24,652 nucleotides of DNA from contig MGSU01000337.1 of the NCBI GenBank assembly GCA_001799195.1, forward strand, positions 1 through 24,652. The letters are read 5' to 3'. This document shows, one piece after another, positions 1 through 19,846 of this stretch (the stretch's first letter is position 1; each line of letters starts with the position of its first letter). The stretch is from Deltaproteobacteria bacterium RIFOXYA12_FULL_61_11 (GTDB lineage Bacteria; Bdellovibrionota_F; JAHFAK01; YA12-FULL-61-11). Position numbers and translations under genes: made by a program. A model generated the notes under the pieces. It saw only the letters and a program-made list of their open reading frames with translations, was not told where the DNA came from and did not search any database.

Positions 1-276
1 CACCACGAGACCTTGTACCTCGGTGTCCTTCGTGGGGGTCTTGGCCACGTCCACCAAAAATTCGGTCTTGATCGTTTCCGTGACCGGCGTCACGTGAATG
101 GTCGCCGATACCGTCGAAATGTACACGACGGCCCCGAGCATCAGCGCAACCGCCACGACAAATCCAACCGCGATGCGGCGATACAGGTTAAGCGACGGGG
201 ACGGCTGTACTTCCCGCCTCACAGCCTTTCCACCACCTGGCCTTCCTAACTTAGTTTTCTTTGCAATGGACGACAT
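1..276 (-). CDS. Membrane-anchored protein, N-terminal part, cut by window edge
   Basis: The reverse strand reads an uninterrupted 92 codons from ATG at 276 to the window edge, with no stop, so the C-terminus is missing. A good ribosome site (GGAGGAATT directly before the ATG) fixes the start. Residues 1-33 are basic and Gly/Pro-rich and would be cytoplasmic; about residues 34-54 (RIAVGFVVAVALMLGAVVYI) form one transmembrane helix; what follows (STVSATIHVTPVTETIKTEF) is a beta-rich extracytoplasmic segment. The pattern 'one helix, then a strand with xATIxVxP and a VxGxV stretch' is familiar to me from large single-pass surface proteins of Patescibacteria. That match is from memory, not a search. 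It is the last of three tandem minus-strand genes and appears to have its own promoter. Function unknown. Confidence 0.75.
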   Translation of the reverse strand, partial: MSSIAKKTKLGRPGGGKAVRREVQPSPSLNLYRRIAVGFVVAVALMLGAVVYISTVSATIHVTPVTETIKTEFLVDVAKTPTKDTEVQGLVV

Positions 277-298
277 AATTCCTCCATTATTTGCCTCT

Positions 299-326
299 AT
301 AATACCACGGCTAGCCAAAAAACCAA
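299..326 (-). promoter_or_regulatory. Putative sigma-70 promoter for the membrane protein gene
   Basis: On the reverse strand a TATTAT -10 box lies at 304-299 and a TTGGTT -35-like box at 326-321, separated by 16 bases. It sits in the 61-base gap 277-337, about 23 bases before the start codon at 276. The -10 match is strong and the -35 match is partial. The gap is AT-rich compared with everything to its right. Confidence 0.4.
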
Positions 327-337
327 ACTATTCGAAC

Positions 338-625
338 TCATGCCGCAGCTTCATCGTCAAAAATAACATCAGTCGCGTACAGATACGGATTCTTATACAC
401 CGAGGAAAGCGCCGAAAGAAATGCGAATCCGTCGTCTGTTGTCATTGGTCGATTTGTCAGCGGATCCGTAATCCCCGCGTTCAACATTGCGACCGCGTCT
501 GGGTCGCCTGTAATGGCGACGATCCCATTTTCGATCGATGCCAGGGCAGCGAGCAATGGTTCACCGTGCTCCAAACGAAATAATTCTACGCGAGCACCCC
601 TGTTTTTATCGCATAGCTGATGCAT
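338..625 (-). CDS. Hypothetical protein, 95 aa
   Basis: This small acidic protein starts at ATG 625, the first start after an in-frame stop, and has no strong Shine-Dalgarno sequence. It has no signal peptide or membrane segment. The middle (residues about 50-85) has the pattern GITDPLTNRPMTTDDGFAFL followed by LSSVYKNPYLYATDV. I associate a 'DP-T-x-x-DG-x-FL-x-AL-x-Y-L-x-AT' pattern with small hypothetical proteins next to kinase-like genes in Patescibacteria, which is recall rather than a search. It begins 36 bases after the kinase-like gene ends and is probably co-transcribed with it. No function can be assigned; a partner or regulator of the kinase-like protein is a guess from position. 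Confidence 0.65.
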   Translation of the reverse strand: MHQLCDKNRGARVELFRLEHGEPLLAALASIENGIVAITGDPDAVAMLNAGITDPLTNRPMTTDDGFAFLSALSSVYKNPYLYATDVIFDDEAAA

Positions 626-660
626 ATCTCGTATTAAATATTCTCTTTATGCGCAAATTC

Positions 661-1872
661 TCATGTATTGCCGAAACGTAAAAATTCTAGGAAAAATTCC
701 CGACCGAAATCTTTCCTGAACGATACTGAATACGGAGGAAACGCTATACGCCTATCCATTGTGTCAAACGCGGCAAGCATCTGTGCGAGTCTCACCTCAT
801 ATGCTCGCCGGTATCCACTCATGTCTTCGGGAGCCAACGCAAATATCTGATCGAATATCTGACGTTCCGTAGATCTCCCCCACTCCCGGACGCATTGCCT
901 TACCTCCTCCGGAATCTCATAATCGAGCTTTGAAACCAGATATAACGCAGCGGAACTAAGCGCAACGGTCAAATCAGTTGAAAAATCCGAACCAAAGTCA
1001 ATCACGGCGATCGTATTTTCAATCGTGGTAACCAAATTGCGAGGAGCACCATCTGTCCGCCATGTCAGCCAATCATTCGCGGCTATATTGAAAATCTCCG
1101 GATGTATCCTTCGATCACTGTCAGTGAACCAATTGGAAACCATCTCGCACGAAGAACCGTCTAGGAATTCCATTAAGGTCGCCGGACCATACCGATCTAA
1201 CCGTCTGGAGACAACCGCAGGAGCGTCAACTCCCATGCCCACTGCGTGCATCGCGCCCGAGACCTCGCGCCAATAGCCATTGCCAGCCACAACGCCACTT
1301 CTAGAAAATCGTTCGGAGAAACCAAATTTGATAATCGCCCGATGCCGTTTTCCTTCGTGTGAGACAACGGCGACGTGCGGACTGCCGGAGTTTCCTTTCG
1401 GCGTTCTAAACAACGGCACTGGTGGAGAAACGATTTCTCCGTACATAAAAGCGACCTCAATCTCACGGCGTCGATCGAGCTGCGCCACGCGCTCAGGGTG
1501 CGCGGCCTTGATCGCAGCGCAGGCCTCCTCGAGGAACGCGAAGGAATCGCAATAGGTCGCCAGACCCACCAGGGCAGCGCCGTCGACGCCAGCCAGGACC
1601 TCGGTCACGGGATCGGCTTTCCGTCTGCAGTCCAGGACGCGGACCTCGTGCCCCAAACGACGGAGCAGGGTGGCCACCGCGGTGAACCCCTCGAAGGGAC
1701 CGCTGATCAGGAATTCGCGACCAGGAGTGGGTTCTTGGGGAGAGGGGGGGACGACCAATGCAATGGTCACTCCACTCGGTGGATCCGGCCGGAGAGCGAG
1801 GGTGGCGAGGCGGTCCTCCAGGGGATCCCGGGCATCACTGTGGAAGTAATGGGCAGGTGGCAGTCCGGACAT
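661..1872 (-). CDS. Apparent fusion: B12-binding N-terminus joined to kinase-fold protein
   Basis: One open frame of 403 residues with two unrelated halves. The start is ATG 1872, which follows GGGAGG and lies one base after the TGA of the preceding gene; a TTG at 1890 is less likely. Residues 1 to about 128 resemble the cobalamin-binding domain at the front of B12-dependent radical SAM proteins: a beta strand ALVVPPSP, then LLRRLGHEVRVLDCR, then GAALVGLATYCDSF and IKAAHPE, after which the expected GG motif and the radical SAM CxxxCxxC are absent. From about residue 143 a kinase fold follows: Lys182 in RAIIKF, Glu203 in REVSG, a hinge LMEFLDG, catalytic-loop DGAPRN (Asp274, Asn279) and DFG (292-294). 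An internal ATG at 1446, preceded by GAGG at eight bases' spacing, could start a free-standing 261-residue kinase-like protein. The fusion is probably not a natural protein. Substrate unknown; protein, lipid or small-molecule kinase are all possible. Confidence 0.6.
   Translation of the reverse strand: MSGLPPAHYFHSDARDPLEDRLATLALRPDPPSGVTIALVVPPSPQEPTPGREFLISGPFEGFTAVATLLRRLGHEVRVLDCRRKADPVTEVLAGVDGAALVGLATYCDSFAFLEEACAAIKAAHPERVAQLDRRREIEVAFMYGEIVSPPVPLFRTPKGNSGSPHVAVVSHEGKRHRAIIKFGFSERFSRSGVVAGNGYWREVSGAMHAVGMGVDAPAVVSRRLDRYGPATLMEFLDGSSCEMVSNWFTDSDRRIHPEIFNIAANDWLTWRTDGAPRNLVTTIENTIAVIDFGSDFSTDLTVALSSAALYLVSKLDYEIPEEVRQCVREWGRSTERQIFDQIFALAPEDMSGYRRAYEVRLAQMLAAFDTMDRRIAFPPYSVSFRKDFGREFFLEFLRFGNT
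1446..1490. other. Probable composition and homology breakpoint
   Basis: Homology to B12-binding domains stops after the AAHPE segment (about 1490), and the kinase-like protein has its own plausible start at 1446. Base composition changes here: the line 1381-1440 holds 31 G+C of 60, and the line 1501-1560 holds 39 of 60. Within 1441-1500, AT-rich sequence (gtacataaaa) gives way directly to GC-rich sequence. No insertion-sequence ends, target duplication or tRNA are visible, so an assembly join between two genomes is as likely as a biological insertion. Confidence 0.6.
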
Positions 1873-1873
1873 C

Positions 1874-2785
1874 TCAGGCCTCCCTGGCAAGAATGGCGGT
1901 AGCGCAGGCGAGACCGCCGGCGCCGCGAAGGAGTTGTTCGATAGGACAGGTACCCGAGACTTCGATCCCGGCCTCGGTCAGGAACTTCTCGGTGAAGGGA
2001 CGGTTCGCGGCCAGAAGTACCTTGCGCGGTGCGAGGGTGACGAGATTCATGGCCTGGAGAGAACGAACCTCGGGGTGTTCGGGCACGGCGACCACCTCGA
2101 AGCCCCGGTCCCGGAGCAAGCGCGGCACTTCGGCCTCGGTGACTTCGGTGCGAACCAGGGCGAGGTCCGGGGCCACGAGCTGGAGCACGCCGAGCAGGTG
2201 TTGGGTCGGACCGCCGGCGAAGGGTACCCGGGTCACCTCGACGGAGAAGGGGGCGAGTAGGGCTTCGAGTTGCGCGGCGCCCTCGGCGTTGGTCCTGGCT
2301 CCAACCCCGAGGAGCACCTCCGAGGAGTGCAACCAGAGGCTGTCGGCTCCCTCGAGCCTGCCCGGGGGCAGTATCCTGCCGAGGATCGGCACCCCGGCCT
2401 CGCGCAGGGTGCGCTCCGCGTAGCGGACCTCATTCCGGCGCAGAGGTTCTGCCATGGCCGAGAGCACTGCTCCGGCCGGGGTCATGAATACGAGATCCCG
2501 ACAATACAAGAGGTTGTAGAGGGCGTTGTTATGCTCCGGCGCGACCGAGCGGTAGTCCACGGTCAGCACCTCGATGCCCCGTTCGAGATAGAGCCGGCGG
2601 AGGGTCCGGCACTCCTCCTGCAATCCCGGGAAGTCGATGGGGCCGGCGTGCAGGTACTGTTCCGGCTCGTCCAGCCGATGGAGCCCGGGCCAAGGGGTAT
2701 GGAGCAGGACCGCGGTCAGCCGACCCCACTCGGTCGCCACCCCGAAACCACGTCCACCCTTCCCCGGTACTTCAGGGTCAGTCAT
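1874..2785 (-). CDS. Amidinotransferase / dimethylarginine dimethylaminohydrolase-like enzyme
   Basis: A 303-residue enzyme of the guanidino-group-modifying (pentein) superfamily, which attacks the guanidinium carbon of arginine-like substrates through a Cys nucleophile. Family marks in order: CRD at 95-97, EGAD at 145-148 (carboxylate that binds guanidinium), the GxGxRTN-type segment at 160-166, His196 in TQHLLGV, MNLV near 246 and the nucleophile Cys294 in AGGLACAT. Length and motif order fit DDAH/arginine deiminase proteins. ATG 2785 is preferred because AAGG precedes it; the frame extends further upstream but only inside the sulfotransferase gene. It starts 14 bases after the sulfotransferase stop and its TGA is one base from the next ATG, so the three genes are likely an operon. 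The substrate cannot be read from sequence: free or methylated arginine, or a guanidino natural-product intermediate. Confidence 0.85.
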   Translation of the reverse strand: MTDPEVPGKGGRGFGVATEWGRLTAVLLHTPWPGLHRLDEPEQYLHAGPIDFPGLQEECRTLRRLYLERGIEVLTVDYRSVAPEHNNALYNLLYCRDLVFMTPAGAVLSAMAEPLRRNEVRYAERTLREAGVPILGRILPPGRLEGADSLWLHSSEVLLGVGARTNAEGAAQLEALLAPFSVEVTRVPFAGGPTQHLLGVLQLVAPDLALVRTEVTEAEVPRLLRDRGFEVVAVPEHPEVRSLQAMNLVTLAPRKVLLAANRPFTEKFLTEAGIEVSGTCPIEQLLRGAGGLACATAILAREA

Positions 2786-2799
2786 GCTACACACCTTGC

Positions 2800-4170
2800 T
2801 CACACCCACTCCTCTCGCCGTCCGGGATCGTACCCCAAGGTTGCGGTGAGGTCCACCACGGCAGGCGTTTCGAGAAGGGGTTCGAAGAGAGCGGCGCGTT
2901 CGCGCCACCGGTAGGGAGTGGGAGCACGAGTGGCCTGGACCAGGGGGTGGGCGGCGAACTCGAATGCACGCCCGGCCTCCTTGGGCAACCCGAGGAACGA
3001 GAGGATGCCTGCCAGACAATGGCGGAAGGACGAGGCGTCGGTCACCAAGTGTTCGTGCCGCACCCTCATGCAGGTCTCGTTCGAAGCGGAGAGGTATTCC
3101 GACAAGGCGCGGTTAGCGCTCTCCCACTGGGCAGTGCAGACTTCGGCCAGGGGGAGCGCCGTCAGGGCAGGCCAACCCGGAGGCAGGTCGAATTTCCACC
3201 ACCGTCGTCCTGAGGGGTGTCGGCTGGAATAGGGCTCGAGGTCGAGACCGCTCGCCGGCAGGGTGGGTGAGTTCCCGAGATCCCAGGAATGGAAGCCCTG
3301 GTGCAACCAACCGTCGTACAGACCGTTGAGTGAGGACGCGGGATTGCGAACGAGGTGGAGCCAGCGCAACTCGGCCTCGGGGAAAAGGGCGCGGAGGAGG
3401 TGGGGACGGTGGCAATCAGCCGTGGTCTTGAGCAACAGCCAGGAAGTTTCCAGCTCTCTCGGCTCGAGAGGTCCTTCCGGAGCGAGCCTGAGGAAGGGCG
3501 GTTCCTCGAGGATAGGTCCATCGTGGGGAGGACCGAGTGGGTCGATGCCGGGGGAGGGCTCGCCCGAGGTCCTGACCGCACCGTCGTACCAACTCGGATG
3601 AAAACGCGGCTCGAGGCGGTGGAGGAACTCGGTCAGGTCGTTCCAACCCGGTCCACCGGAGACCGGACCGAAGCGAGGGTCCCAGCCGCGATGAAGCCCG
3701 GTGGAGATCCTCTCGTACAGCTCTGCACCATGACCGCGGAAGCCGGGCCATTGCAGGAGGAGGGTGCGGGTGAGGCGCGCGGTGTGGGCCTCGAGCAGCC
3801 CGGGGGTGTCGTAGCGGTCCTTGGAGGTTGCAGCGCTGCCGAGCATGGCGAGCATTTCTCCGGCCATGGCGTCGAGGTCGAGCTTCGAGGTCTCGGGTCC
3901 GAGGGCGTCACCTTCCGGACCCGGGTTCAGAGGGAGACCGTGCAGACGATAGTAGGGCTGGCATTCGCCTGGAGGGGAAATCACTCCGGGCAGCCGGCGC
4001 AACAAAGCGAAGAGGTGGCTCGAACCCGAACGAGAGGCTCCGGCGATGATCGCGACGCGACGGATACGCCGGAAGAGGTCACGGCAGGCGGCCATCCGGG
4101 GTGAAACCGGCGGCAAGGCTGCCAACTCGGCCCGGAGCAACTCACGGTGTTGTTCCAGGGAGTGGTCCAT
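2800..4170 (-). CDS. Sulfotransferase family protein
   Basis: A 456-residue cytosolic protein of the PAPS-dependent sulfotransferase fold, which transfers sulfate to a hydroxyl or amine. The 5'-phosphosulfate loop is RRVAIIAGASRSGSSHLF (about 37-54). The 3'-phosphate-binding segment is LRWLHLVRNPASSLNG (about 268-283), with the typical Arg-Asn-Pro followed by Ser. A MRVRHEHLV segment near residue 375 matches the family's RYEDL-type motif. The region between the loops is longer than in minimal sulfotransferases and contains Pro/Gly-rich linkers. Start ATG 4170 has only a weak ribosome site. It is the first gene of a minus-strand cassette with the amidinotransferase-like enzyme and a B12-binding protein, and is divergent from the histidine kinase. 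The acceptor is unknown; a small metabolite is favoured by the neighbours. Confidence 0.85.
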   Translation of the reverse strand: MDHSLEQHRELLRAELAALPPVSPRMAACRDLFRRIRRVAIIAGASRSGSSHLFALLRRLPGVISPPGECQPYYRLHGLPLNPGPEGDALGPETSKLDLDAMAGEMLAMLGSAATSKDRYDTPGLLEAHTARLTRTLLLQWPGFRGHGAELYERISTGLHRGWDPRFGPVSGGPGWNDLTEFLHRLEPRFHPSWYDGAVRTSGEPSPGIDPLGPPHDGPILEEPPFLRLAPEGPLEPRELETSWLLLKTTADCHRPHLLRALFPEAELRWLHLVRNPASSLNGLYDGWLHQGFHSWDLGNSPTLPASGLDLEPYSSRHPSGRRWWKFDLPPGWPALTALPLAEVCTAQWESANRALSEYLSASNETCMRVRHEHLVTDASSFRHCLAGILSFLGLPKEAGRAFEFAAHPLVQATRAPTPYRWRERAALFEPLLETPAVVDLTATLGYDPGRREEWV

Positions 4171-4345
4171 GACGTTGCTCGTACCAGTCTATTGATGTAT
4201 TTCGTTCTCTACATGGTTGCGACGGAATCTTCAATCGGAGCCGCCCGAGAAGTCAGCTATTATTGTCGCTCTACCTTGGTCCCCGGACGGTATGGAACGC
4301 CTTGGAATTTGCTTTCCCTCTGTTCTTGCTGTAGGTTCCCGGGGT

Positions 4346-4369
4346 CGATTCGATGCGCTCTTCGAATCG
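4346..4369. promoter_or_regulatory. Perfect 8-bp inverted repeat before the histidine kinase gene
   Basis: CGATTCGA at 4346-4353 pairs perfectly with TCGAATCG at 4362-4369 across an 8-base loop, ending 26 bases before the kinase start. It lies in the 225-base divergent gap 4171-4395 between the sulfotransferase and kinase genes, which must hold both promoters. I could not pick convincing -35/-10 pairs there. The repeat could be an operator or a leader hairpin. Confidence 0.35.
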
Positions 4370-4395
4370 TCGCTATCCACGATCCGGAGAAGTTC

Positions 4396-6393
4396 ATGGA
4401 TCAGCAGAGGATCCTGCTCGTCGACTCCAGTGAGGAAGAGATCTCCCGTCTCCGGGCCATGCTCCGGACCGAGCTCACGATCGACACGGCGCGGAGCCGC
4501 GACCAAGCCTTGCGAGTTTTTGACAAGGATCTCCATCAGATCGTCGTGGCCGATCACCTGCTCGCTGACGGTACTGCCCTGGAACTCCTCCAAGAGCTCA
4601 GGCTACTCGCTCCCGACTTGATTTTCGTGCTCATGACCACCGAGGGTGGGGAAAACCTCCTCCGGGAAGCCTTCCAGGCGGGCGCTCACGATTATCTCGA
4701 TAAACAACTGCTCGAGAGGGACCCTTATTTCCTCCAACAGGTCCTGGACAAGGCCTTCGAGAAGCTCGATTTCCAGATTCTCAAGCACAGCCTGGAGCGC
4801 GAGCTGTTCAACGCCAATCAAGACCTCCTGCTCCACAACCAGAACCTCCTGCGCAACACCGACCAGCTCCAGCTCGAGAAACTCAAGCTCGAGGAGAAGA
4901 ACCGCGAATTGGAGGAATTGACGGAGAATCTCGATAACTTCCTGTCGATCTGTTCCCATGACCTGCGCTCGCCGATCAGCACCGTCAAGTCCATGTCCCG
5001 TTTCCTCCTCGAACGTGCCCGCGAACGTTTGGACAACATCGAGCAGGATTTTTTGCACCGGATCATCAAGAACGCCGACTACAGCCTCGAGCTGATCGAG
5101 AAATTGCTCGACAGTCACGAATTGGAGCGCGGCGTGCGGCGTCACTTCGAGATGCTCGACGTGAACGCGATCATCAATTCGGTCAGCCATGCCTTTATAC
5201 TCCAGATCCGTCAGATGGACCTGAACTTCATGTGTTTCAACAAGGTCGACGATCTCGAGCTGTTCGGCGACCGGATCAAGCTGACGCAGCTCTTCAACAA
5301 CCTCATGGTGAACGCCATCAGGCATACCCCTCAGAAAGGCTCGATCAGCATCGAGGTAGAAGAGGAACGGCGAGGACCCACGCGCCACCTCGTGTTCAGC
5401 ATTTTCAACACGGGCAGTTATATTCCTCCCGAGTACCACGAGCGCATCTTCGACAAGTTCGAACAAGTACCGGGTGCTCCCCGCAGCGATGGGGGGCGAG
5501 GTCTCGGGTTGGCCATCTGCAAAGGGGTTTGCGACTTGCACGGCGGGAGCATTTCGGTGCGCTCCGACCAGGCCACCGGTACCACCTTCATCGTCTCCCT
5601 GCCCCAGTACAAGGACCTCGAGGACCTGCCCGGCGAACGTCCCCTGAGTCGGCCCAAGGTGTTGCTCTTCGGTTGCGACGAAGCTTTACAGAAGCTCTTC
5701 GAAACGCTCTTCGGTGACGCAGCGAGGGTCTTGGCTTTCAACGCCGTCAGCAAGCGGTTCAATCAACTCCTCGACCACCAGGTCACCCACGTCGTGTTCG
5801 ACGAGACCGTGCTCTCCTCGACTCCCTCCTCCGCCTTTCGCTCGTTGCAGAGCCGTGGCCCTAGCTTGCAAACCCTTGTGGTGGTGCACAAATACGATGA
5901 GTCCCTGCTCGAACGGTACTACCGCTCTATCAACGACGTCTTCAGTCTACCGAGCGACAAGGCCTATATGCGTTGGAAACTCGACTATCCTCTCGACCAT
6001 TGGTTGACCGAGGTGGCCGATCGCTCGAGGGTAGTCCTGCTGGTCGAAGCTGATCCCGAGCGCCGACAGAGCTTCTTCGATCAACTTGCAAGCGATGAGA
6101 ACCTGGGCGTGATCCCGGTAGCCAACGGCTATGATGCCTTGCTCGCCGTGCGGAAGATCGAGGTACACCTCGTGATTGCGGCCAGGGAATCGACGGTCAT
6201 GGATGGCCTCGAACTGCTCACCCGGCTCAAGCTCAATTACCCTGAACTGCCGGTGGTCCTTATCGGTGACCGGGAAACTCCGACCGAAGATCTTGCCGCC
6301 CGAGTTCTCGGTGCTGCCGCCGTATTCCCGAGCGAAGTCACCCTCGATACCTTCGGCCGAGAGGTACGGCAGATCCTGGGCGTTGCCGGGTGA
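4396..6393 (+). CDS. Hybrid histidine kinase with N-terminal receiver and two C-terminal receiver-like domains
   Basis: A 665-residue cytosolic sensor without membrane segments. Residues 1-125 are a CheY-like receiver with acidic residue D10, phospho-acceptor D53 (VVADHLL) and a YLDK lysine. About 126-175 is a Leu/Glu/Asn-rich coiled coil. The dimerisation domain has the H-box SHDLRSP with His188. The ATPase domain has an N-box LFNNLMVNAIRHT (299-309), G1 variant FNTGSYIP (Asn338 replaces Asp, a variant I know from other kinases), the F-box IFDKF and G2 GGRGLGLAI (366-374). About 490-style linker is absent; instead a middle receiver-like domain (about 405-530, D469) and a last one (about 545-660) follow directly. 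In the last, Ala596 replaces the phospho-Asp although MDGLELL is kept. ATG 4396 follows GGAG at good spacing. It may act as a phospho-input integrator; its partner regulator is not in the window. Confidence 0.9.
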   Translation: MDQQRILLVDSSEEEISRLRAMLRTELTIDTARSRDQALRVFDKDLHQIVVADHLLADGTALELLQELRLLAPDLIFVLMTTEGGENLLREAFQAGAHDYLDKQLLERDPYFLQQVLDKAFEKLDFQILKHSLERELFNANQDLLLHNQNLLRNTDQLQLEKLKLEEKNRELEELTENLDNFLSICSHDLRSPISTVKSMSRFLLERARERLDNIEQDFLHRIIKNADYSLELIEKLLDSHELERGVRRHFEMLDVNAIINSVSHAFILQIRQMDLNFMCFNKVDDLELFGDRIKLTQLFNNLMVNAIRHTPQKGSISIEVEEERRGPTRHLVFSIFNTGSYIPPEYHERIFDKFEQVPGAPRSDGGRGLGLAICKGVCDLHGGSISVRSDQATGTTFIVSLPQYKDLEDLPGERPLSRPKVLLFGCDEALQKLFETLFGDAARVLAFNAVSKRFNQLLDHQVTHVVFDETVLSSTPSSAFRSLQSRGPSLQTLVVVHKYDESLLERYYRSINDVFSLPSDKAYMRWKLDYPLDHWLTEVADRSRVVLLVEADPERRQSFFDQLASDENLGVIPVANGYDALLAVRKIEVHLVIAARESTVMDGLELLTRLKLNYPELPVVLIGDRETPTEDLAARVLGAAAVFPSEVTLDTFGREVRQILGVAG

Positions 6394-6418
6394 CAGGCCG
6401 GGAACCTTCTGGTATTGT
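6390..6418 (+). promoter_or_regulatory. Putative sigma-70 promoter for the first FGE-like lipoprotein
   Basis: GTGACA at 6390-6395 and TATTGT at 6413-6418 are separated by 17 bases. The -35 box overlaps the kinase stop codon, and the -10 lies 40 bases before the lipoprotein start. This would let the lipoprotein be expressed independently of the kinase. Confidence 0.45.
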
Positions 6419-6458
6419 TCCGTAACTATCGGTGACGTGGTTCCACCTGAGGACTGCT

Positions 6459-7703
6459 ATGACGAGTACTACTCGCATGCTCGTAGGAACTCTCGCCCTG
6501 ATGCTTGTCGGATGCACGGGATCGGCTCTGATCGACCCCACCTCGCCGACCGGCAACAACGAGCAGAGCCCCACGACCCGAGCCGACGCTGCAGCGGAGA
6601 CCGATCCCCAGATGGGAGACTCTCTTCACTTGGAACCCTCTGATCCTGACCTTGTGCTCCACACCGATCCCGTCGACACTCTCCCGGACGAAACCCAAGG
6701 GCCGGGGACGCAACCGCCCGTGGTCGATCCGAGCGGCATCGAGGACGGAGCTGCCACGGACGATGTTCCCCAGACAGGTACCCAATTCCCTACGAGTTCC
6801 GGGAACGAGGGGCCTCCGGCTGGAGGACCAACCTCCCCTGGTTTCGAGACCCCGGGCGACGACGCGACGGTTGATCCGAGTCCACCGGTCGTTCCACCCC
6901 CGGATCCGCCCGATCCGACCACGGATCTGCCACCGCCTCCTGATCCACCCGATCCGACCACCGACCCGTCGCCCCCACCGGCGCCGGCCGTGACCTGGAT
7001 CGACCTTCCCGATGGTACCTTCTCCATGGGAGATACGACCCTCGCGAGCCCAGTCCATCTGGTGCAGCTCAGCGCCTTCAGGATGACCGGCACCGAGGTG
7101 ACGGTGGCCCAGTACCGTTCCTGTGTCGCCGCGGGCGTCTGTATCTCGGCCGAGACCTGTACCTGGGGGGATCCCAACCAAGATGACGATAGCAAGCTCG
7201 ACCATCCCATCGTGTGCGTGAGCTTGGCCATGGCAAGGACCTGTTGCCAGTGGCTTGGCGGGGACCTACCCACCGAGGCGCAATGGGAATACGCCGCTCG
7301 CGGTGGGACCGATCGTGCCTACCCGTGGGGGAACACCGAACCCGACGGGACCTTGACCAATTGCGATCCCGACCTGTGTTCCGACGGTTTCGCCGAAACC
7401 TCCCCGGTCGGCAGTTTCCCCGCGGGTGCTTCGCTGCACGGCCTCTACGATATGGCCGGCAATGTCTGGGAATGGGTGCTCGATTGCTATGACGGTACCT
7501 ATTACGCGACCATGCATGCGACCTGTCCCGCCGGCTGTCTCGACCCCCTGAATCTTGCGTGTAACTCCAGTGCCTATCGGGTGTTGCGAGGGGGAAGTTG
7601 GCTGAACGATGCCGCTACCTTCCTGCACGCAGCGAACCGATCCCTGGCAGTCCCCAACGGCACAAAGAAGAGCGTCGGGTTTCGCTGCGCCGCCGCCCCC
7701 TGA
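6459..7703 (+). CDS. Lipoprotein with FGE/sulfatase-modifying-factor-like domain
   Basis: A 414-residue protein. ATG 6459 follows TGAGG at about six bases; upstream ATG 6432 would spoil the signal peptide. Residues 1-19 are a lipoprotein signal (LMLVGC, Cys19). Residues about 20-175 are a disordered Pro/Asp/Thr-rich linker, including the duplicated PDPPDPTTD coded at about 6901-6966. Residues about 178-414 are an FGE-sulfatase fold: DGTFSMG, GTEVTVAQY, HPIVCVS, LPTEAQWEYAARGG, AYPWGN, GLYDMAGNVWEWV, YRVLRGGSW, GFRCA. The segment after RGGSW reads LNDAATFLHAANR and lacks the cysteine pair that formylglycine-generating enzymes use for copper and catalysis, so sulfatase activation is unlikely and a binding or structural role at the envelope is more plausible. 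A paralogous domain ends the large protein at 11285-15412. Confidence 0.88.
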   Translation: MTSTTRMLVGTLALMLVGCTGSALIDPTSPTGNNEQSPTTRADAAAETDPQMGDSLHLEPSDPDLVLHTDPVDTLPDETQGPGTQPPVVDPSGIEDGAATDDVPQTGTQFPTSSGNEGPPAGGPTSPGFETPGDDATVDPSPPVVPPPDPPDPTTDLPPPPDPPDPTTDPSPPPAPAVTWIDLPDGTFSMGDTTLASPVHLVQLSAFRMTGTEVTVAQYRSCVAAGVCISAETCTWGDPNQDDDSKLDHPIVCVSLAMARTCCQWLGGDLPTEAQWEYAARGGTDRAYPWGNTEPDGTLTNCDPDLCSDGFAETSPVGSFPAGASLHGLYDMAGNVWEWVLDCYDGTYYATMHATCPAGCLDPLNLACNSSAYRVLRGGSWLNDAATFLHAANRSLAVPNGTKKSVGFRCAAAP

Positions 7704-7710
7704 AGCGAGC

Positions 7711-8763
7711 TTAAGGACAGTTGTCGCTGGTAACGGTCTGACCGGCGGTCGGAACGCCGTTGCCGCCGACATCCTCGAAGCTGAGCGGGATGGACTGACA
7801 CCACGAGCCGCCGCAGTCCTTCTGGCGCTGGGTGTGGAGGTGCGGACCCGTGGACCAACCGGTGCTGCCCGAGAGACCGATGACCTGCCCGCGGCTGACC
7901 CTGTCCCCCTTGCTCACTTTAGCCGTATTGAGATGTGCGTACAGGGTGTTGCTGCCATCGCCGTGATCGATGGTGACGGTGTTGGCGGCATTGATGCATC
8001 CCGAGCCTCCGCCGTTGTAACACGGCTCGCCCGGCTGCGTCGGCAGCGCGATCGCGACAACCAACCCCGCGGCCATGGCGTGGATAGGCGTGTTGACGGG
8101 TATCCCGAAATCGAAGGCATAGCGGGAGCTGCCGTTGTGCGAGAAGTTGGTGTTGTTGCCCTGGGTCACCTTGATCTTCTTGCCGCAGGCGAAGGGGAGG
8201 TAGAACCCCGGCCGGTCGGGGGCTTCGGGTAAGGGGTCAGGAGTGTTAGGCAAGGGCTGGGGAGTAGTCGGGTCGGGCGCGGTTGGCAAGAGGGCATCGT
8301 GCTGGGAACACCGGGTGTAGAAGGCCGAGATGTAACCTTCGTCGAGCCGATACCAGGTGGTTTCGCCGTTGACGTTCTCGCCTTCGACTTCCTCGAGGAC
8401 TTCGATCTGTTCGTTGGGTTCCAGACTGGCGACGATCCTGCCGTCGGTCGTGGGGGTGGAACGGATGTTCAGGACCTCGCCCCCGGTCTTGACGACCTTG
8501 ACCAGGGTGCAGCTCGTTCCCGGCGCCGCGGGGAGCAGCTCGGGGTTGAGCACGGGACTCGGGAGGTCCGGACGTTCTTCGTCCTCGGTTGGGACGAACA
8601 CCTGCTCGCTGCCGGGGATGACCGGCAAGTAACCGTAGACGGTCGGTTCTTCCTGGGACACGTCGATGGGTTCGCCGCACGCCCCGAGCAAGAGGAAGCC
8701 TAGCAGTGCGGGGGAAGGGAAGCGCCTCGGTCGCGGCGCGGGGTAGGGGAGCCGAGTATTCAC
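7711..8763 (-). CDS. Lipoprotein with SH3b domain and M23 (LytM-type) metallopeptidase domain
   Basis: A 350-residue envelope protein predicted to cut peptidoglycan cross-bridges. The lipoprotein signal ends at LLLGAC (Cys29). An SH3b-like domain spans about 85-152 ([30 protein letters not shown]). A Pro-rich linker runs to about 185. The M23 domain (about 195-345) has His209 and Asp218 ([13 protein letters not shown]), YAHL near 275 and the HxH pair His308/His310 (GPHLH), the zinc set expected of an active enzyme. Extra cysteines (192, 248, 256, 317, 322, 349) suggest disulfides. The start is uncertain: GTG 8763 is chosen because the signal peptide begins there and a promoter places its +1 near that base; TTG 8799 coincides with the -35 box. 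It converges on the FGE-like lipoprotein with 7 bases between stops. Confidence 0.85.
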
Positions 8764-8769
8764 CGCCTC

Positions 8770-8799
8770 ATGGTACCCGATATCCGGGGTGAGAGGCAA
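8770..8799 (-). promoter_or_regulatory. Putative promoter for the M23 lipoprotein, possibly leaderless
   Basis: On the reverse strand TTGCCT (8799-8794) and TACCAT (8775-8770) are separated by 18 bases. Six bases then precede GTG 8763, so transcription may begin at or next to the start codon. A GAGGC stretch lies too close to the GTG to act as a normal ribosome site. Confidence 0.4.
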
Positions 8800-8800
8800 T

Positions 8801-8813
8801 GGTGCAATGCACC
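8801..8813. promoter_or_regulatory. 13-bp palindrome beside the M23 promoter
   Basis: GGTGCA, a central A, then TGCACC form perfect 6-base arms. It abuts the -35 box of the M23 gene, one base away, in the 88-base gap 8764-8851, which suits an operator. No repressor gene is adjacent. Confidence 0.35.
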
Positions 8814-8851
8814 CACGTCTGAACTGAGACAGAGGTCGCAGGGGAAATGGT

Positions 8852-11128
8852 TTACCAAGGAGCGGTCGTCGCTACCCAGTCGTAGTTGCCTTGGGCGTCG
8901 AATAGCTTGATTTGTATGTATAGTGTTCGCGAGCCGTCTTTAGGAATGTCTGCCATGTCGTAGGTGATCTCGGCCGCGGCGTCGAAGGGCGTTTCGGTCA
9001 GTTTGAACCAGGTTGTGGTCTCGCCCTCGAGGACCTTGCCCAAGGGGTAGAGCTTCGAGCCGGCTTCCGGTTGCAGCTCGGCCCAGCCACCGTTGACCTC
9101 GGCATAGAGGGCGGATTGGGTCTCACCCGCGGGTTCGAGTCCGCCCATACCGGATTGGTAGGGAGTCGATTCTTTGTAGAGGACGAAAATTTCGCGGCCA
9201 TCGGCCGTTTCGTAGAGGAGCGGAATGCTGCCGGTGAAGAATCCGTACTCGGTGAACGTGGTTTCATCAACCCGTTGAGTGATGCTGGAGAGGCTGATGT
9301 AGGCTCGTTCCACGCGAGAGCCCTGGGTCAATTGGCCGAAACCCATGAACATCCATGGGACACTGAAAGTAGTTAATGTTGAGATGTCCACGTTGCCGTT
9401 TGTTTGGGAGAAAGAGTCATGCAGAATGATGGTCTTGCCGTTTTCGATCAAGCCTCCGAAGAATACCCCACTGACCACGCGCGCTGCGGCACCGGAAGCG
9501 AAGTCCGCTGAGATCCACGGCGCGTCACCGAAGGGGTTGAAGCCGGCGAGCTCGGCCGGGGGTTGATTGCCGCCCGCATGGTTCGGATTGGTAAAGAATC
9601 CGGTACTCTGCACGCTCGTCGGTACGGTCGGCGCAGGAGTGGTGACGTTGCCGCTGGCGTCAACTCCCGTGGTTTGGGGCGTAGCCGGGGTTTCCACGCT
9701 GGCGGGAGCGGTGATGGTGACATCGCGGCGATTGAAATAACCGTCGAGGAAGGTACGCCAGACCGCGACGTCCTGGAGGCGGTTGTACCCGCTGTTGTAC
9801 TCGCTGGCATAGAGCGGGAAGTAGATGGCGAGCCCTGTCGATTTATCCCGGGCCGGGCCCTTGTGATTCGTCACCACGGCCGCTGCGAGTGCCTGGGAGA
9901 AGACGGCGGTCTCAGCGGAGAAGTTCACGCCGGCGCCGAGGATGAACTCCCCGAGGTCGATCATCTGCGGATCGTAGGCTCCCTCTGGCGCCTCGCCGCG
10001 CACCACGCTGCCATACGCGGTTGCTCCGCTGCGCTTGGCCGAGTAGGCGGTGGCGCCATTGGCCATCTGGCCTCCGAGCTTGGACAGGACCGTTTGAAGG
10101 GCCGCCTCGAGTCGGGGCATGGCGTTGAGGTCGATGACCGATTGGGTCACGGTGTTGGACTGCCCGCGTTCCTGGGCTTGCTGGGCGAAACCGGCGACCA
10201 GGGCTTTCCCCAGATCGAGCGGAGAGGTCGAGGGATTGGTGGCCAGCACGCCGAAGGAACGATAATCCCAGCCGTGTCCGGGCACGAGTTCCTCGCTGGC
10301 GACGAGGTATTCGGAGAAGGGGGCCATGGCCATGGCGACCTCGTAGGTGGCCATCAGGCAAGCATCGAAACCGATCAGAGCGAAGCGTTGCAGGCCGGCA
10401 GCGGTCATGCCGTTGTAGATGCCTTGGCGCATTTCCGCCAGGGAGAGCATGTCGGGGGAGGCCGCCCCCTCGTCGATGCCGAAGCCTGGCCAGGCCGCGC
10501 CGTGGTCCCAGAACACCAGAGCCGTGCGGTCGGCCGGATAGGCGCCCACTCCCCAGGAGATGAAATCGGCCAGGGCCTCGGCGGTACCGGTGTTCAGCTC
10601 GCCGAGGTCGGAGATTTCCTCGACTGAGTTCTGTTTCACCAGGAAGCGTTTCGTGGAGGTGAACGAGCCCAACACACCCGCGTCGGCATCGTCCGTGAAG
10701 GTTGCAGACCGGTCGTGCTGGACCACCAGGTTGAGCCCGGTGGTCGATCCCACGGCCATGAGCTCTTGCATATCCTTGAAACTAGCGGCCTCGAGGTTGT
10801 TGTCCGCTGCCATGAAGACCAGCACGGTCCAACTGTTGCCGGTGGTCGAGTGCGGAGGCAACCGGTCGAGGGAGAGCACGCACACACCGTCCCGGCACAT
10901 AGTGCCCTCGGCGCATGGGGTGGCACAGGTCAGGGTCAGGTCGTCGCGGATCAGGTCGCCGCTGCGACCAGGATCGTAACCGCTTGGATCGTTTGGCTTG
11001 ACGGGATCGTCCGTGCCGCTGGGAGTATTGGGAGAAGCTGGGTTCTGGCTATCGACCGTGCTGTCGCTCGAGCATCCGGTTGCCAGTACCAGCATGAAGG
11101 ACAATAGGAGCGGGATCATATATTTCAT
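8852..11128 (-). CDS. Clostripain-family (C11) cysteine peptidase lipoprotein
   Basis: A 758-residue exported protein. ATG 11128 is set by GGGAGG six bases before it and gives a clean signal peptide ending at ATGC (Cys19). A Pro/Asp/Ser linker follows, then a four-cysteine cluster at 68-83 ([17 protein letters not shown]) like those in myxobacterial surface proteins. The peptidase domain starts near residue 98 ([16 protein letters not shown]); the clan CD dyad is His209 in VFWDHGAAW and Cys257 in [10 protein letters not shown]. These peptidases usually cleave after Arg or Lys and are often self-processed. After about residue 480 there is a Thr/Pro-rich linker (about 490-535) and a C-terminal beta-rich region of about 220 residues that I do not recognise. 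It is divergent from the large FGE-like lipoprotein, sharing the 11129-11284 gap. Confidence 0.88.
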
Positions 11129-11167
11129 CTCTGGCCTCCCGACCAAACAAGTTGAAGGCTTCTCTGC

Positions 11168-11234
11168 CATGAGAGCGAAGGGAAATGCAAGCCCCTCGTG
11201 CGGTTCTCGGCGAGGGCTTCTTTACATGAGAGCG
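11168..11234. repeat. Pair of 10-bp direct repeats in divergent promoter region
   Basis: CATGAGAGCG occurs at 11168-11177 and again at 11225-11234, starting 57 bases apart, one copy on each side of the inverted repeat at 11189-11219. The second copy overlaps the -35 box of the plus-strand promoter. This may be a paired regulator site. Confidence 0.35.
11189..11219. promoter_or_regulatory. GC-rich inverted repeat next to divergent promoter
   Basis: AAGCCCCTCG (11189-11198) can pair with CGAGGGCTT (11211-11219) with one bulged C, across a 12-base loop. It stops one base before the TTTACA box. As no plus-strand gene precedes it, it is unlikely to be a terminator for that strand; on the minus strand it would lie in the clostripain leader or its operator. 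Confidence 0.35.
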
Positions 11235-11250
11235 CCCGCTGGGCTACAAT
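11221..11250 (+). promoter_or_regulatory. Sigma-70-like promoter for the large repeat/FGE-like lipoprotein
   Basis: TTTACA at 11221-11226 and TACAAT at 11245-11250 are separated by 18 bases, each one base from consensus. The -10 lies 34 bases before ATG 11285. The same boxes read backwards give TTGTAG (11249-11244) and TGTAAA (11226-11221) with 17 bases between them, so a minus-strand clostripain promoter might overlap it. Confidence 0.55.
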
Positions 11251-11284
11251 CCGCCCACTCGTCTACCCCTCTCGGAGGCAGGCC

Positions 11285-14200
11285 ATGCGCCCGAGTTCCC
11301 GGTTCCTCCTCCCCGCCCTGTTCCTCTGTCTCGCCTGCTCTGACCAACCACCGACCAACTACGGTAACGGTCCCGGTCCGGAAGGCGCGAGCACCATAGT
11401 AGCCAGTGCCGGCAAGGCCAATTTCCTCGACGTGACCTCGCCCGAGGGCATCATCATGCAGCTTCGTAAGGATACCGTTTCCAAACCCGAGACTATCCGC
11501 ATCCAGCAACGTACACCGGATGCCCTGAGCCTTCGCCTCAAGTCCTCCATCCGCGCCTCGGTCAGTATTCCCGGTCTGCTCTATCGTTCCGAACCCATCA
11601 ACGTCGCTGGAGCCTCCCGCTTCCTGTTCCTGGCCGAGGTCGGCATCAACGAGCAGGCCCAGTTCGCCGGAGAGGGATTGACCTTCCTGGTCCCGGTCTC
11701 CCTCCTTCCCGTGACCACCCTGGCCAAAAACACGATCCCCGGCCACACCCTCTCACCCGTCGATATCCCGGAAGAGTCCCTGCCGAATGAGCTCATTCCC
11801 TCGCAAGCCCTTCCGGCAGCGCACTTCGCTCTGGCCGATCTCTCCGGCGATTCCCTTATCGCACAACCCGGTCACACCGACGACGAAGCCGATCCGACGG
11901 TCAAGACCCAACTCGTGAGGCAACCCAAGCACCAAGAGCAGTCGACCGCGGAGTCGACCAAGAAACCGGTCGTCACGGCGTTGCTCTTCGTCGAGCACGG
12001 TACAGGCGTCTACCGCATGCAGTGCCAGGTCGAGGACCAGCTTTCCGCTGCAAAACGCTTGGCCGTGACGTGTCCCATGACCGGGGCCATGCAACATCCC
12101 TTCTTCACCCTGGCGGTCTTCACCGCCTCGACCGGGGACTACTACCAGGCTCGGGTCGATGATCTACCTGTGGCCTTCCTCCCCAAACAGATCCACCTCG
12201 GTTCTGGTCGCAACACCCCGCCCGAATTGACCCTGGCCGCGGGCTATCTCGTCGGTGCCTCGACCCCGAACGTGCTGCTCATCGAAGCCGAGGATGCCGA
12301 GGGAGATTTCCTCAGCCTCGATTTCCAAGCCCCCGCCAACTTGGTGCACGAACGCCATCACCACCGCATCCTCCTGCGACCTTCGCAGCAACAACTCGGC
12401 ATGACCCTGGAGGTCCAGGTGACCGTGAAGGACAGCGGCAATCCCAGGTTGGAAGATCATAAGACCATCACCTTGCACGTGGTCGAGCGCGAGGTCCTGG
12501 CCAATCCCCTCGACCGCGACCTACCCCTCTCCATCGACAGCGCTCCTTCCGCGGTAGTGCAGGATTCGAACGCACGTTTCGTCTTTTCGACGGGACGTCC
12601 GGCCACCTTCTATTGCCGCCTGGATGCCGCGAAGTTCGAGATCTGCACGGCCGAACTCCTTCTCGAAGGCTTGACCGCAGGCCAACATACGCTCGCCGTC
12701 TTCGCCATTGACAAGGTCGGGGTCAAGAGCAGCGAACACCTGCACACCTGGACCGTGGACCTGAGCTTCGACACCACAGCGCCGAGCGGGACCGTTACCG
12801 GGCCGGATCCGAGCGCCGATCAGACCACCCCCGACTTGACCCTCGCCTTCGACCTCAGCGACGACACGGGGGTGGCCGCCTGGTGCGCCAGGAGCCCGTT
12901 CGAGGAGGATCCACCGGCAGTCGCGGACGCGTGCTGGCGGCGCTTCATACCAGCCACGAAGCTTCAGCGCGGGAACCAGGTCTTCGTGCTTGCTCCGGGC
13001 TATGGCGAGCAACAGGTCGAGGTCTTCGTCCGCGACCTCGCCGGCAACCTCACCGCACCCTTCCGCTTTACGGTGAACTACCTGCCGCCGCCGGACACCA
13101 CCTCCCCGGTCGAGGGTAGGGTGGTCATCGAGGACAATCACACCACGACCTATCAGCGTCAGGTGCTGCTCTCGCTCTCGGCCCGTGATGACGTCGCCGT
13201 GGCGGCTTGGTGTGTCCGGGATACCCTGCTCGAGCCCGAACCCGAGGACGCGTGTTGGCAGCTTGTCGAGCCGCCGAGCTCCAACCTTTACCTCGGGAAT
13301 ATCGCCAAAGAACTCTCGGAAGGACCGGGTCTCAAACAGGTCCATGCCTGGTTCCGCGATCTCTCGGGCAACGTCAGCACCGTGGCCAGCGATTCCATCC
13401 TCTATGAGCTACCCGGGGACGTCGTCCCCCCGGCTCCGCTGAGCGTGGAACTGGCCCTGGGAGTGGCGACCACCGCTTCTCAACAGATCCAAGTGAGTGT
13501 AGAGGCCTCGGACGAGGTCGGCGTCACCGCCTATTGCCTCAAGGAAGACCAGAACCCTCCTACGCTCGAACATCAATGTTGGAGGACTCTGGACTCCGCC
13601 CAACCTCTGTTTGAGCTCGCGGACGTGGATTTCTGGCTCAGTCCCGGGTATGGGCAGAAGACCGTCACCGCCTGGTTCCGCGATCTGGTCGGCAACATCT
13701 CTATGCCGAGCTCCGACAGCATCGAATTCACCGGTCCAGCGGACAGCGGCCCCCCAACCTCGGCGGCAATTTCCATCAATGACGGGGGTGAAACCACGGA
13801 CAATCTATTGATCTCGCGTGACATTGTTGCCTTCGACGATACCGGTATCACGGCCTGGTGCGTCAAGGAAACCTCGGACCTCCCCGGGCCGGAACATCCC
13901 TGCTGGAGAACCGTGAACCCGGCGGTGACCTCCCTCAGTCTGGCCGAAATTCCCTTCACGCTCTCCAACAACCCCGGGGAACACCGGCTCTCGGCGTGGT
14001 TCCGCGACCTCCCCGGCCAACTCTCGGAACGGGTCGAAGACCTGATCACCTATACGCCGCTGGCCGGTGGAGAGGATACCACCCCGCCCCTCGTGGTCTG
14101 GCTCGGCCGGCCCGACGATCCCGACAACCAGGCGGTGTTCACCTTCACCTCCGATGACCCGGGTGCGACCTATCGCTGCCGGACCGACGGTGTTGGCCCC

Positions 14201-15412
14201 GTGAGCTGCACCAGTCCAAAGGACCTCGCGGCGCTCCCCGACGGTCGGCACACCCTCGAGCTGCAGGGGGTCGACCAGGTCGGCAACACTTCGGATTGGT
14301 TGAGTTATTCCTTCTATCTGGACCGGACCGGGCCGGTCAACCCGGCCGTCGTCTCTCCGGTCGGAGCAGTTCCGGCCCGCGAGCTCACCGTGGAGCTCAG
14401 CGGAGACGATGATCAGGCCATCGGCGCGTACTGCCTGCTGGAAGACCTGGGGAGTCCAACGCCGGCGCCGGCCTGTTGGAATCCGGTGTCCCCTGTCGGT
14501 ACCTTCTCCCTCGCCGTCGACCTGACCCTGAGCGAGCCCCTGGGGACGAAACGCCTGCACCTGTGGCTACGAGACCTCGCCGGGAACGTCTCGGCCGAGG
14601 CTATCGAGGAAGTCGCCTTGATCGTCCCCTTCGTGACCAATGCGTGGCTCGGGGTGCCCGCCGGTTCCTTTGACATGGGGTTGGATGGGGGACGGGTCGA
14701 ACAGAGTCCTGCGCACCTCGTGCATCTCTCCGCTTTCCACATGCTGACCTACGAGGTGAGCGCCGAGGAATACGAATTCTGCGTGGACGCCGGAGCCTGT
14801 GTCGCCGCGGACACGGGGAACACCTGCACCGCGGGCCGGGTTGGCAAGGAAGACCATCCCATCAATTGTTTGAGCTTCCAAGCGGCCGAGGCCTATTGCC
14901 ATTGGCTGGGGGGAACTCTGCCCAGCGAGGCGCAATGGGAATATGCCGCAGCGGGTTCCAACTCCCTGGCCTATCCCTGGGGTGAGGTCTTCGAGAGCAA
15001 CCGCCTCAATTATGCCTCCAATGGAGATCCTTACGAAGTGGAAGCCCTCGAGACCACCCCGGTAGGGTATTTCACCGATACCACCCACGACGGCTCCTAC
15101 ACCTCGGCGAACGGCTCCTCGCCCTTCGGCCTGCACGACCTCGGCGGCAACGTCTGGGAATGGGTACTCGATTGGTATGACTGTTATCCCTCCAATAACT
15201 TCTGCGCCACCCCCGGGGCTTCTCCCTTCTACACCGCTTCCGAGGACATGGACGACCCGGTCAATCTGCAATACGTTGCCAACCTCAAGGTCATCCGCGG
15301 CGGGAGTTGGGCCAACGACCAGGCCAACCTGGGGAACACCTACCGGAACTATCAGACGCCGGAGTTTGGCAACGAGCTCATCGGACTGCGCTGCGTCGCC
15401 CCGGCCCCCTGA
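11285..15412 (+). CDS. Giant lipoprotein: Cys/Trp Ig-like repeats with C-terminal FGE-like domain
   Basis: A 1375-residue protein; ATG 11285 follows GGAGG at six bases. The lipoprotein signal ends at CLAC (Cys18). Residues about 30-330 form an N-terminal region I do not recognise, then a cadherin-like segment (about 325-415: NTPPELTLAAG, EAEDAEGD, VTVKDSGNP). Next comes an Ig-like unit with YCRLDAAKFEIC, then six units beginning D-x-x-x-P (coded from 12770, 13094, 13418, 13742, 14075 and 14321). Five of the six share A[WY]C, a later CW, and a closing WFRDLAGN-type motif; the unit from 14075 is of the YRCRTDG/SC type. Residues about 1119-1375 are an FGE-like fold (AGSFDMG, LPSEAQWEYAAAG, GLHDLGGNVWEWV, VIRGGSWANDQANL, LRC) again without the catalytic cysteine pair. 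It is likely a long stalk presenting a C-terminal domain. It converges with the HD-protein gene, 14 bases between stops. Confidence 0.87.
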   Translation: MRPSSRFLLPALFLCLACSDQPPTNYGNGPGPEGASTIVASAGKANFLDVTSPEGIIMQLRKDTVSKPETIRIQQRTPDALSLRLKSSIRASVSIPGLLYRSEPINVAGASRFLFLAEVGINEQAQFAGEGLTFLVPVSLLPVTTLAKNTIPGHTLSPVDIPEESLPNELIPSQALPAAHFALADLSGDSLIAQPGHTDDEADPTVKTQLVRQPKHQEQSTAESTKKPVVTALLFVEHGTGVYRMQCQVEDQLSAAKRLAVTCPMTGAMQHPFFTLAVFTASTGDYYQARVDDLPVAFLPKQIHLGSGRNTPPELTLAAGYLVGASTPNVLLIEAEDAEGDFLSLDFQAPANLVHERHHHRILLRPSQQQLGMTLEVQVTVKDSGNPRLEDHKTITLHVVEREVLANPLDRDLPLSIDSAPSAVVQDSNARFVFSTGRPATFYCRLDAAKFEICTAELLLEGLTAGQHTLAVFAIDKVGVKSSEHLHTWTVDLSFDTTAPSGTVTGPDPSADQTTPDLTLAFDLSDDTGVAAWCARSPFEEDPPAVADACWRRFIPATKLQRGNQVFVLAPGYGEQQVEVFVRDLAGNLTAPFRFTVNYLPPPDTTSPVEGRVVIEDNHTTTYQRQVLLSLSARDDVAVAAWCVRDTLLEPEPEDACWQLVEPPSSNLYLGNIAKELSEGPGLKQVHAWFRDLSGNVSTVASDSILYELPGDVVPPAPLSVELALGVATTASQQIQVSVEASDEVGVTAYCLKEDQNPPTLEHQCWRTLDSAQPLFELADVDFWLSPGYGQKTVTAWFRDLVGNISMPSSDSIEFTGPADSGPPTSAAISINDGGETTDNLLISRDIVAFDDTGITAWCVKETSDLPGPEHPCWRTVNPAVTSLSLAEIPFTLSNNPGEHRLSAWFRDLPGQLSERVEDLITYTPLAGGEDTTPPLVVWLGRPDDPDNQAVFTFTSDDPGATYRCRTDGVGPVSCTSPKDLAALPDGRHTLELQGVDQVGNTSDWLSYSFYLDRTGPVNPAVVSPVGAVPARELTVELSGDDDQAIGAYCLLEDLGSPTPAPACWNPVSPVGTFSLAVDLTLSEPLGTKRLHLWLRDLAGNVSAEAIEEVALIVPFVTNAWLGVPAGSFDMGLDGGRVEQSPAHLVHLSAFHMLTYEVSAEEYEFCVDAGACVAADTGNTCTAGRVGKEDHPINCLSFQAAEAYCHWLGGTLPSEAQWEYAAAGSNSLAYPWGEVFESNRLNYASNGDPYEVEALETTPVGYFTDTTHDGSYTSANGSSPFGLHDLGGNVWEWVLDWYDCYPSNNFCATPGASPFYTASEDMDDPVNLQYVANLKVIRGGSWANDQANLGNTYRNYQTPEFGNELIGLRCVAPAP
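12770..14630 (+). repeat. Six tandem Ig-like domain repeats (protein level)
   Basis: Unit starts are 12770, 13094, 13418, 13742, 14075 and 14321, so the first three intervals are exactly 324 bases (108 codons), followed by shorter spacings of 333 and 246. Shared marks are D-T-T-x-P at the start, A-W-C or A-Y-C, C-W about 15-20 residues later, and W-F-R-D-L-x-G-N near the end. The DNA has diverged, so the array is old, not a recent expansion. Confidence 0.75.
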
Positions 15413-15426
15413 CACGAGAACCCGGT

Positions 15427-16584
15427 TCAGGGCCAATCCAGGTAGCTCAGGAGGAGCTTCTTCCCCCCGAGGTCGCGATAGGGGTTGGAGCGGTGCTTCA
15501 GGAAACGCCGGTAGGAGGCGACGGCCTCGTGGTACTGGGCGAGGTCCCGGTAGGTTGAGGCCAGGTCGCAGCGATACAGGACGAGCAGCTTGGGGAACCA
15601 CGGGGATCCCAGGACGGGTTCGAGCTGACGCGGAGCCAGCGTGGGCAGCGAGGCCGGCAACATGTGGTGCCGGACCAGCCAGGTGACCTCGTCGATCAAG
15701 GAGGAGGGGTAGCCGAGCCGGTGGAGGAAGACCCTGGCGATTCTCTCACCCTGCTCGGCGTGTCCGGAGAACTTCCTGGTTCCCGCGGCATAGGTACTTG
15801 CCTTGCCGACGTCGTGCAGCAATAAGGCAAGCGAGAGGGTGAGGTCGGCGAGCCTTGGGTAATGGAGGGTTTCGAGGGTGTGTTGCCAGCCGTCACCTTC
15901 CGGGTGGTGGTCCTTGGAGTGTGTGACGCCGCGGAGTTCTTCGAGTTCCGGCCAGTGAGTTCGGACGAAGCCGCCTCGAGCCAGAAGTTCGAGGCCCTGC
16001 CAGGGGGTTTCGCCGAGGAGCAGAGCGGTGAGCAACTCGCGCTGGTAGCCGGGAGACAGGAGCGGACCTTTTCCGGTGCCGTGCGCCAGTTCGGGAGGGG
16101 GCTTGTACGCGTGTCGGCCGACCACGAGCGCGATTTCGGCGAGCGACAGCCAGGAACAGGTCATCGCCGGCGGGAGTAAGGCTTCGCTCGGCCGTAGCCT
16201 GGCCGCCCGCAGGTCGGGGTAGACCTCGTACCAATCCAGGAAACGCCCATGCTCTGGTTCGTAGAGGAGGTCGAGCACGCTCACGCGGTGGCGAGGAGGG
16301 CGATCGGGGAATTCCCCGCAACGCACACAGAGCTCGAGGTCGTCGCGGCGGAGCCGGGCTTCCCCCCGTTCGTCGGCACGATAGCTCAGATCATCGCAAG
16401 CTCGTGCCAAGTCGACCAGGGACCTGGTGGTATAGACCTCGAGCAGAGGCAGCATGGGGACGCGGTGGTACAGATCGAGCGCGGTGAGACCCGAGGCCCA
16501 ACAGGGCTGGGGCAGCCCGGCGAGAGCCACCCCGAGCTGCTCGGCCTGAATGGACGTCGGCGCTCGTACATTGGACTGAGCCAC
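15427..16584 (-). CDS. HD-domain protein with degenerate CCA-adding-type nucleotidyltransferase head
   Basis: A 385-residue cytosolic protein. GTG 16584 follows GAGGAAG at suitable spacing. Residues about 180-350 match the HD region of bacterial CCA-adding/poly(A) polymerases: SKDHHPEGDGWQHTLETL (His235), LLLHDVGK (His257-Asp258), SGHAEQGE (His275), VRHHM (His306/307) and CDLAST (Asp340). All metal-binding residues are present, so phosphohydrolase activity on nucleotides or phosphodiesters is plausible. Residues about 20-130 keep the outline of the polymerase head (CWASGLTALDLYH, YTTRSLVDLARACDDLSY, VSVLDLLYEPEHGRFLD) but lack the G-S/G-(x)n-R-D and D-x-D residues needed for nucleotide transfer. 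It is therefore not expected to be the cell's tRNA nucleotidyltransferase. Divergent from the dockerin lipoprotein across 16585-16773. Confidence 0.8.
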   Translation of the reverse strand: MAQSNVRAPTSIQAEQLGVALAGLPQPCWASGLTALDLYHRVPMLPLLEVYTTRSLVDLARACDDLSYRADERGEARLRRDDLELCVRCGEFPDRPPRHRVSVLDLLYEPEHGRFLDWYEVYPDLRAARLRPSEALLPPAMTCSWLSLAEIALVVGRHAYKPPPELAHGTGKGPLLSPGYQRELLTALLLGETPWQGLELLARGGFVRTHWPELEELRGVTHSKDHHPEGDGWQHTLETLHYPRLADLTLSLALLLHDVGKASTYAAGTRKFSGHAEQGERIARVFLHRLGYPSSLIDEVTWLVRHHMLPASLPTLAPRQLEPVLGSPWFPKLLVLYRCDLASTYRDLAQYHEAVASYRRFLKHRSNPYRDLGGKKLLLSYLDWP

Positions 16585-16712
16585 TCGATCTTCCTCGGAT
16601 ACTTGGATAGGAGCCTAGTCCGGGCATTTCCGGGATTGTGTACCAGGCAGGCAGGGATGGCAAGCGAGGGACGTGCTGGACTTCCGAGGCAGATCGGCCC
16701 ATCGAGGCCGGG

Positions 16713-16742
16713 ATGACAACCGGTTGTCGGCTGCGCTATACT
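16713..16742 (+). promoter_or_regulatory. Sigma-70-like promoter for the dockerin lipoprotein
   Basis: ATGACA at 16713-16718 and TATACT at 16737-16742 are 18 bases apart; the -10 ends 31 bases before ATG 16774. The spacer carries the palindrome described next. Confidence 0.55.
16715..16728. promoter_or_regulatory. 14-bp perfect palindrome inside promoter
   Basis: GACAACCGGTTGTC is its own reverse complement. It overlaps the last four bases of the -35 box and the first part of the spacer, where a bound dimer would block RNA polymerase. It is a strong operator candidate; the regulator is unknown. Confidence 0.5.
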
Positions 16743-16773
16743 TGCAACGGATCGGCAACCCCGAAGCGAGAGC

Positions 16774-18060: not shown

Positions 18061-18163
18061 AGCTGACCTCCCTCTTCCCTTCGAGGAAAGACGAACATGC
18101 GAACAGGGAATTTCTCAGACTGTTCAGGGGTTCGGCAGAGACGGGGGCGTTCCCAGAGAGGCT

Positions 18164-19672: not shown

Positions 19673-19707
19673 GGTCTTACCCCCTTGGGTCGTAGAGAAC
19701 CTGGCGC

Positions 19708-19735
19708 AGTATACCAGAACGGCCGGCCTTGGCGA
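19708..19735 (-). promoter_or_regulatory. Putative promoter for the VWA lipoprotein
   Basis: On the reverse strand a strong TATACT -10 lies at 19713-19708 and a weak TCGCCA -35 at 19735-19730, 16 bases apart. The -10 is 35 bases before the start codon at 19672. Confidence 0.4.
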
Positions 19736-19846
19736 CCACCTGAGAGTATTTTTTCATAACAATTGTCTCCAACGACGGCAGCTTGCGTTCGACCGACCGG
19801 GGGTGCTAGGAAGGCGAGGCGACCCGATCCGGCGAGAGGTGGTAGG

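Follow-up and report, generated by a model that had tools for sequence, protein, structure and literature searches.

The window analysed here, a stretch of 24,652 bases, is the entire contig of a genome bin of 4.64 Mb and 342 contigs, and the unusual segment described below therefore sits at a contig end. On the minus strand, a frame without stops runs from a TTG at 1890 to position 661 and encodes 409 amino acids. The first ATG of this frame lies at 1872 and gives 403 codons, and the plus strand is closed across the region. The initial annotation had described a single frame joining a B12-binding part to a kinase part, and this was confirmed. The first 125 residues (1516-1890, minus strand) are the N-terminus of a host B12-binding protein, the rest of which is lost at the join. 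The C-terminal 284 residues (126-409; 661-1515, minus strand) belong to a kinase-like protein of Candidatus Uhrbacteria, as judged from the ORF, a comparison of homologues and a structure model, and the preceding 125 residues of that protein are absent. Two further Uhrbacteria ORFs follow on the same strand: one of 95 amino acids at 338-625, which also occupies this place after the kinase-like gene in two related genomes, and one of 410 amino acids at 1-318, which the contig end cuts after 106 residues.

The B12-binding assignment of the N-terminal part came from a profile match. Residues 1-125, together with the next eight, gave a weak and partial match to positions 16-65 to 16-80 of the 121 of the B12-binding domain (PF02310), scoring 16-18 bits (18.4 at most) against a Pfam cut-off of 32.1 bits for a domain that is incomplete and cut by the join. 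The match stops before the GG region and there is no radical SAM part, as the initial annotation had stated. The host bin contains a large set of such genes, with 53 B12-binding and 135 radical SAM matches; no close paralogue of the N-terminal fragment was found in the MAG. Directly upstream of the truncated gene, positions 1874-2785 (minus strand) encode a member of the arginine deiminase / dimethylargininase superfamily. In addition, two secreted-looking proteins are encoded on the plus strand at 6432-7703 and 11198-15412, and by eye their C-terminal domains are like those of formylglycine-generating-enzyme/sulfatase-modifying proteins.

Among 84,980 species genomes, the kinase part had one relative, with 100% identity over its 261 residues, and this sole relative is encoded by contig MGFA01000019.1 of Candidatus Uhrbacteria bacterium RIFOXYB12_FULL_58_10. 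No relative was found among viral contigs. At the nucleotide level, 1514 of the 1515 bases at window positions 1-1515 (minus strand) equal that contig (99.93% identity), the sole mismatch being base 612, which is C in the window and A in Uhrbacteria. The matching stretch occupies 95526-97040 of the 105,144 bases of MGFA01000019.1 (4932-6446 of the extracted locus L003) and is thus interior. The identity ends abruptly at 1515/1516, and window positions 1516-20000 had no match anywhere in the RIFOXYB12_FULL_58_10 genome. The suggestion that the left ~1.45 kb came from a different organism was therefore borne out, with a foreign segment of 1,515 bases. The breakpoint is about 70 bases farther than the boundary at 1446 that had been proposed.

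The composition of the window changes at the same place. The GC content rises from 51% (1-1515) to 63% (1516-24652), which agrees with the shift that had been noted at the joint. Composition was also compared with an order-3 Markov score, for which 60 kb of host contigs and about 49 kb of the Uhrbacteria contig served as training sets. Per kb, the log-odds came to -36 left of the junction (1-1515) and +36 right of it, where the lowest 1515-base tile scored +15; the sign flips at the junction. The sequence from 1516 to 24652 is host-like in composition throughout.

In the Uhrbacteria genome, the corresponding ORF has 409 codons (L003:4557-5786), and its first 125 residues are unlike those in the window. 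The equal length of this ORF and the fused frame is a coincidence that arises from taking the TTG at 1890 as the start. Of 41 other genomes in the family, two encode homologues of the Uhrbacteria protein (39 and 34% identity), and these align with it from residue 1-3 to residue 400-403, across the breakpoint. In both genomes, the two genes that come next at the left end of the window follow in the same order. In a structure prediction for the complete protein, helix 98-130 is unbroken across the breakpoint at 125/126, and the pLDDT of this block is about 90. The full-length homologues, the kept neighbours and the continuous helix indicate that the window holds a decapitated Uhrbacteria gene, whose N-terminus is replaced by 125 residues of the host B12-binding protein. 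The initial annotation had given the kinase part a start of its own at ATG 1446, preceded by GAGG. A native start there is ruled out because the Uhrbacteria ORF and the homologues align upstream of it; this ATG is internal codon 148 of the 409-codon ORF, and the ribosome-site-like GAGG before it is incidental.

The contig is almost certainly a chimera of assembly (or of the library), in which a Uhrbacteria piece was joined to an unrelated host contig. A very recent horizontal transfer, in which Uhrbacteria DNA was inserted into the host B12 gene and truncated it, had been offered as the alternative; it would also produce near-identity with a sharp edge, and its other edge would lie off the contig. 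This reading is very improbable and gained no positive support. The two lineages are very distant, yet all bases except one equal those of a single MAG. No tRNA is present in the window, and neither an integrase nor an IS gene was seen at the edge. The segment begins in the middle of a gene and extends to the contig end. Furthermore, Uhrbacteria stretches of 10.8 kb and 20 kb at and beside the match (29 kb compared) were not matched at near-identity anywhere else in the host bin, where the only other matches were short, with 64-77% identity, as expected of conserved genes.

Two further explanations are less probable still, to the point of being negligible. A genuine fusion of B12-binding and kinase domains native to the host would account for a frame open over 409 codons, but the kinase half matches Uhrbacteria DNA at every base, both domains are cut (B12-binding near position 80 of its 121, the kinase-like protein within an N-terminal helix), and the fused architecture had no match in any of the 40 other genomes of the relatives set, of which only one is of the same class, while the Uhrbacteria-family homologues carry a different N-terminus. 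Equally implausible is the converse, a correct window and a chimeric Uhrbacteria contig with the kinase segment being the host's own: both records are metagenome assemblies, but the two family genomes hold homologues that span the breakpoint beside the same neighbours, and the composition of 1-1515 fits Uhrbacteria and not the host.

As to how the chimera arose, DNA from the genome of a co-occurring Candidatus Uhrbacteria bacterium would have been joined to the contig end of an unrelated, radical-SAM-rich bacterium through a word, some 20-27 bases long, that is common to the host B12-binding gene and the Uhrbacteria kinase-like gene. The probable word, GCGATCAAGGCCGCGCACCCTGAG, lies at 1492-1515 (minus strand) and encodes AIKAAHPE. 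Its bases equal those of Uhrbacteria, and the eight residues that it encodes suit the B12-binding profile as well, lifting the score from 14.3 to 18.3 bits. Genuine B12-binding domains have a comparable stretch ahead of the GG motif, as seen in two paralogues in the bin (TIKELHPSTFSIMGG and LAKAHNPAILVVAGG). The gain of 4 bits and the paralogues suggest that about 24 bases were common to both genes by chance and served as the bridge. Both genes would happen to share the same frame across this word, and the frame would for this reason have stayed open by chance. When the junction word was searched in the host MAG, exactly and with up to three mismatches, only the window itself and two near-matches at three mismatches were returned, and the real continuation of the host B12 gene was not found among them.

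The MAG probably comes from the Rifle aquifer study, judging by its identity. In that study, IDBA-UD was run on the short reads of each sample with 40 as the minimum k, and the authors reported misjoins and used read mapping to repair errors (PMC5079060). A word of 24 bases is shorter than this minimum k, so that the join more likely came from scaffolding, from gap closing or local assembly, or from a chimeric read or library molecule than from a plain k-mer path through the graph. A bridge by a shared 40-base k-mer was also considered and is unsupported, since the B12 similarity reaches only about eight codons past the break. The case resembles the interspecies chimeric contigs described for short-read metagenome assembly (PMC7299287) in having two genomes in one contig, an abrupt switch and a likely join at a short word. 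It differs from them in that the organisms are not closely related, the putative shared word is short and the frame happens to stay open.

The finding is a data-quality warning only, and the fusion ORF is not a real gene. Since the frame is open across the join, gene prediction would yield a B12-kinase fusion protein made by neither organism, and two Uhrbacteria genes would also be misassigned to the host lineage. The remedy is to trim the contig at about 1516, removing the first ~1.5 kb, and to drop the fusion ORF.

A separate and modest point concerns the kinase-like protein itself. The complete kinase fold that had been described stands as a moderate resemblance to the HipA/CtkA-type kinase fold; it does not stand as a gene on its own, because the join leaves the C-terminal 70% of the Uhrbacteria ORF. 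The structural matches to this fold had Z scores of 7-8.6 at 4-5 A rmsd, with a model pLDDT of 71 that is low in parts of the catalytic region. The highest VIA-align Z was 8.6, to CtkA (3akk; 186 residues, 4.0 A), and that to HipA was about 7, over model residues 146-381. A Foldseek search with the model returned no match at E 0.001, and no meaningful match in Pfam, NCBIfam, PHROGs or the PDB sequences named the protein. The ID[FY]GSD motif and the D.A.RN loop were present in all three homologues. In contrast to HipA and CtkA, the Uhrbacteria protein has an additional all-helical N-terminal domain, and it seems to represent a genuine family of Uhrbacteria, as yet unnamed. Its members lie upstream of two conserved genes, at L003:4557-5786 and, in the related genomes L028 and L029, at L028:970-2754 and L029:53-1747. 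At L003:4042-4600, two different frames (ORFs 4042-4578 and 4557-5786) share the coding sequence of its N-terminal part, possibly because of a frameshift or a sequencing error; L028 and L029 have one ORF instead, of 594 and 564 codons, respectively.
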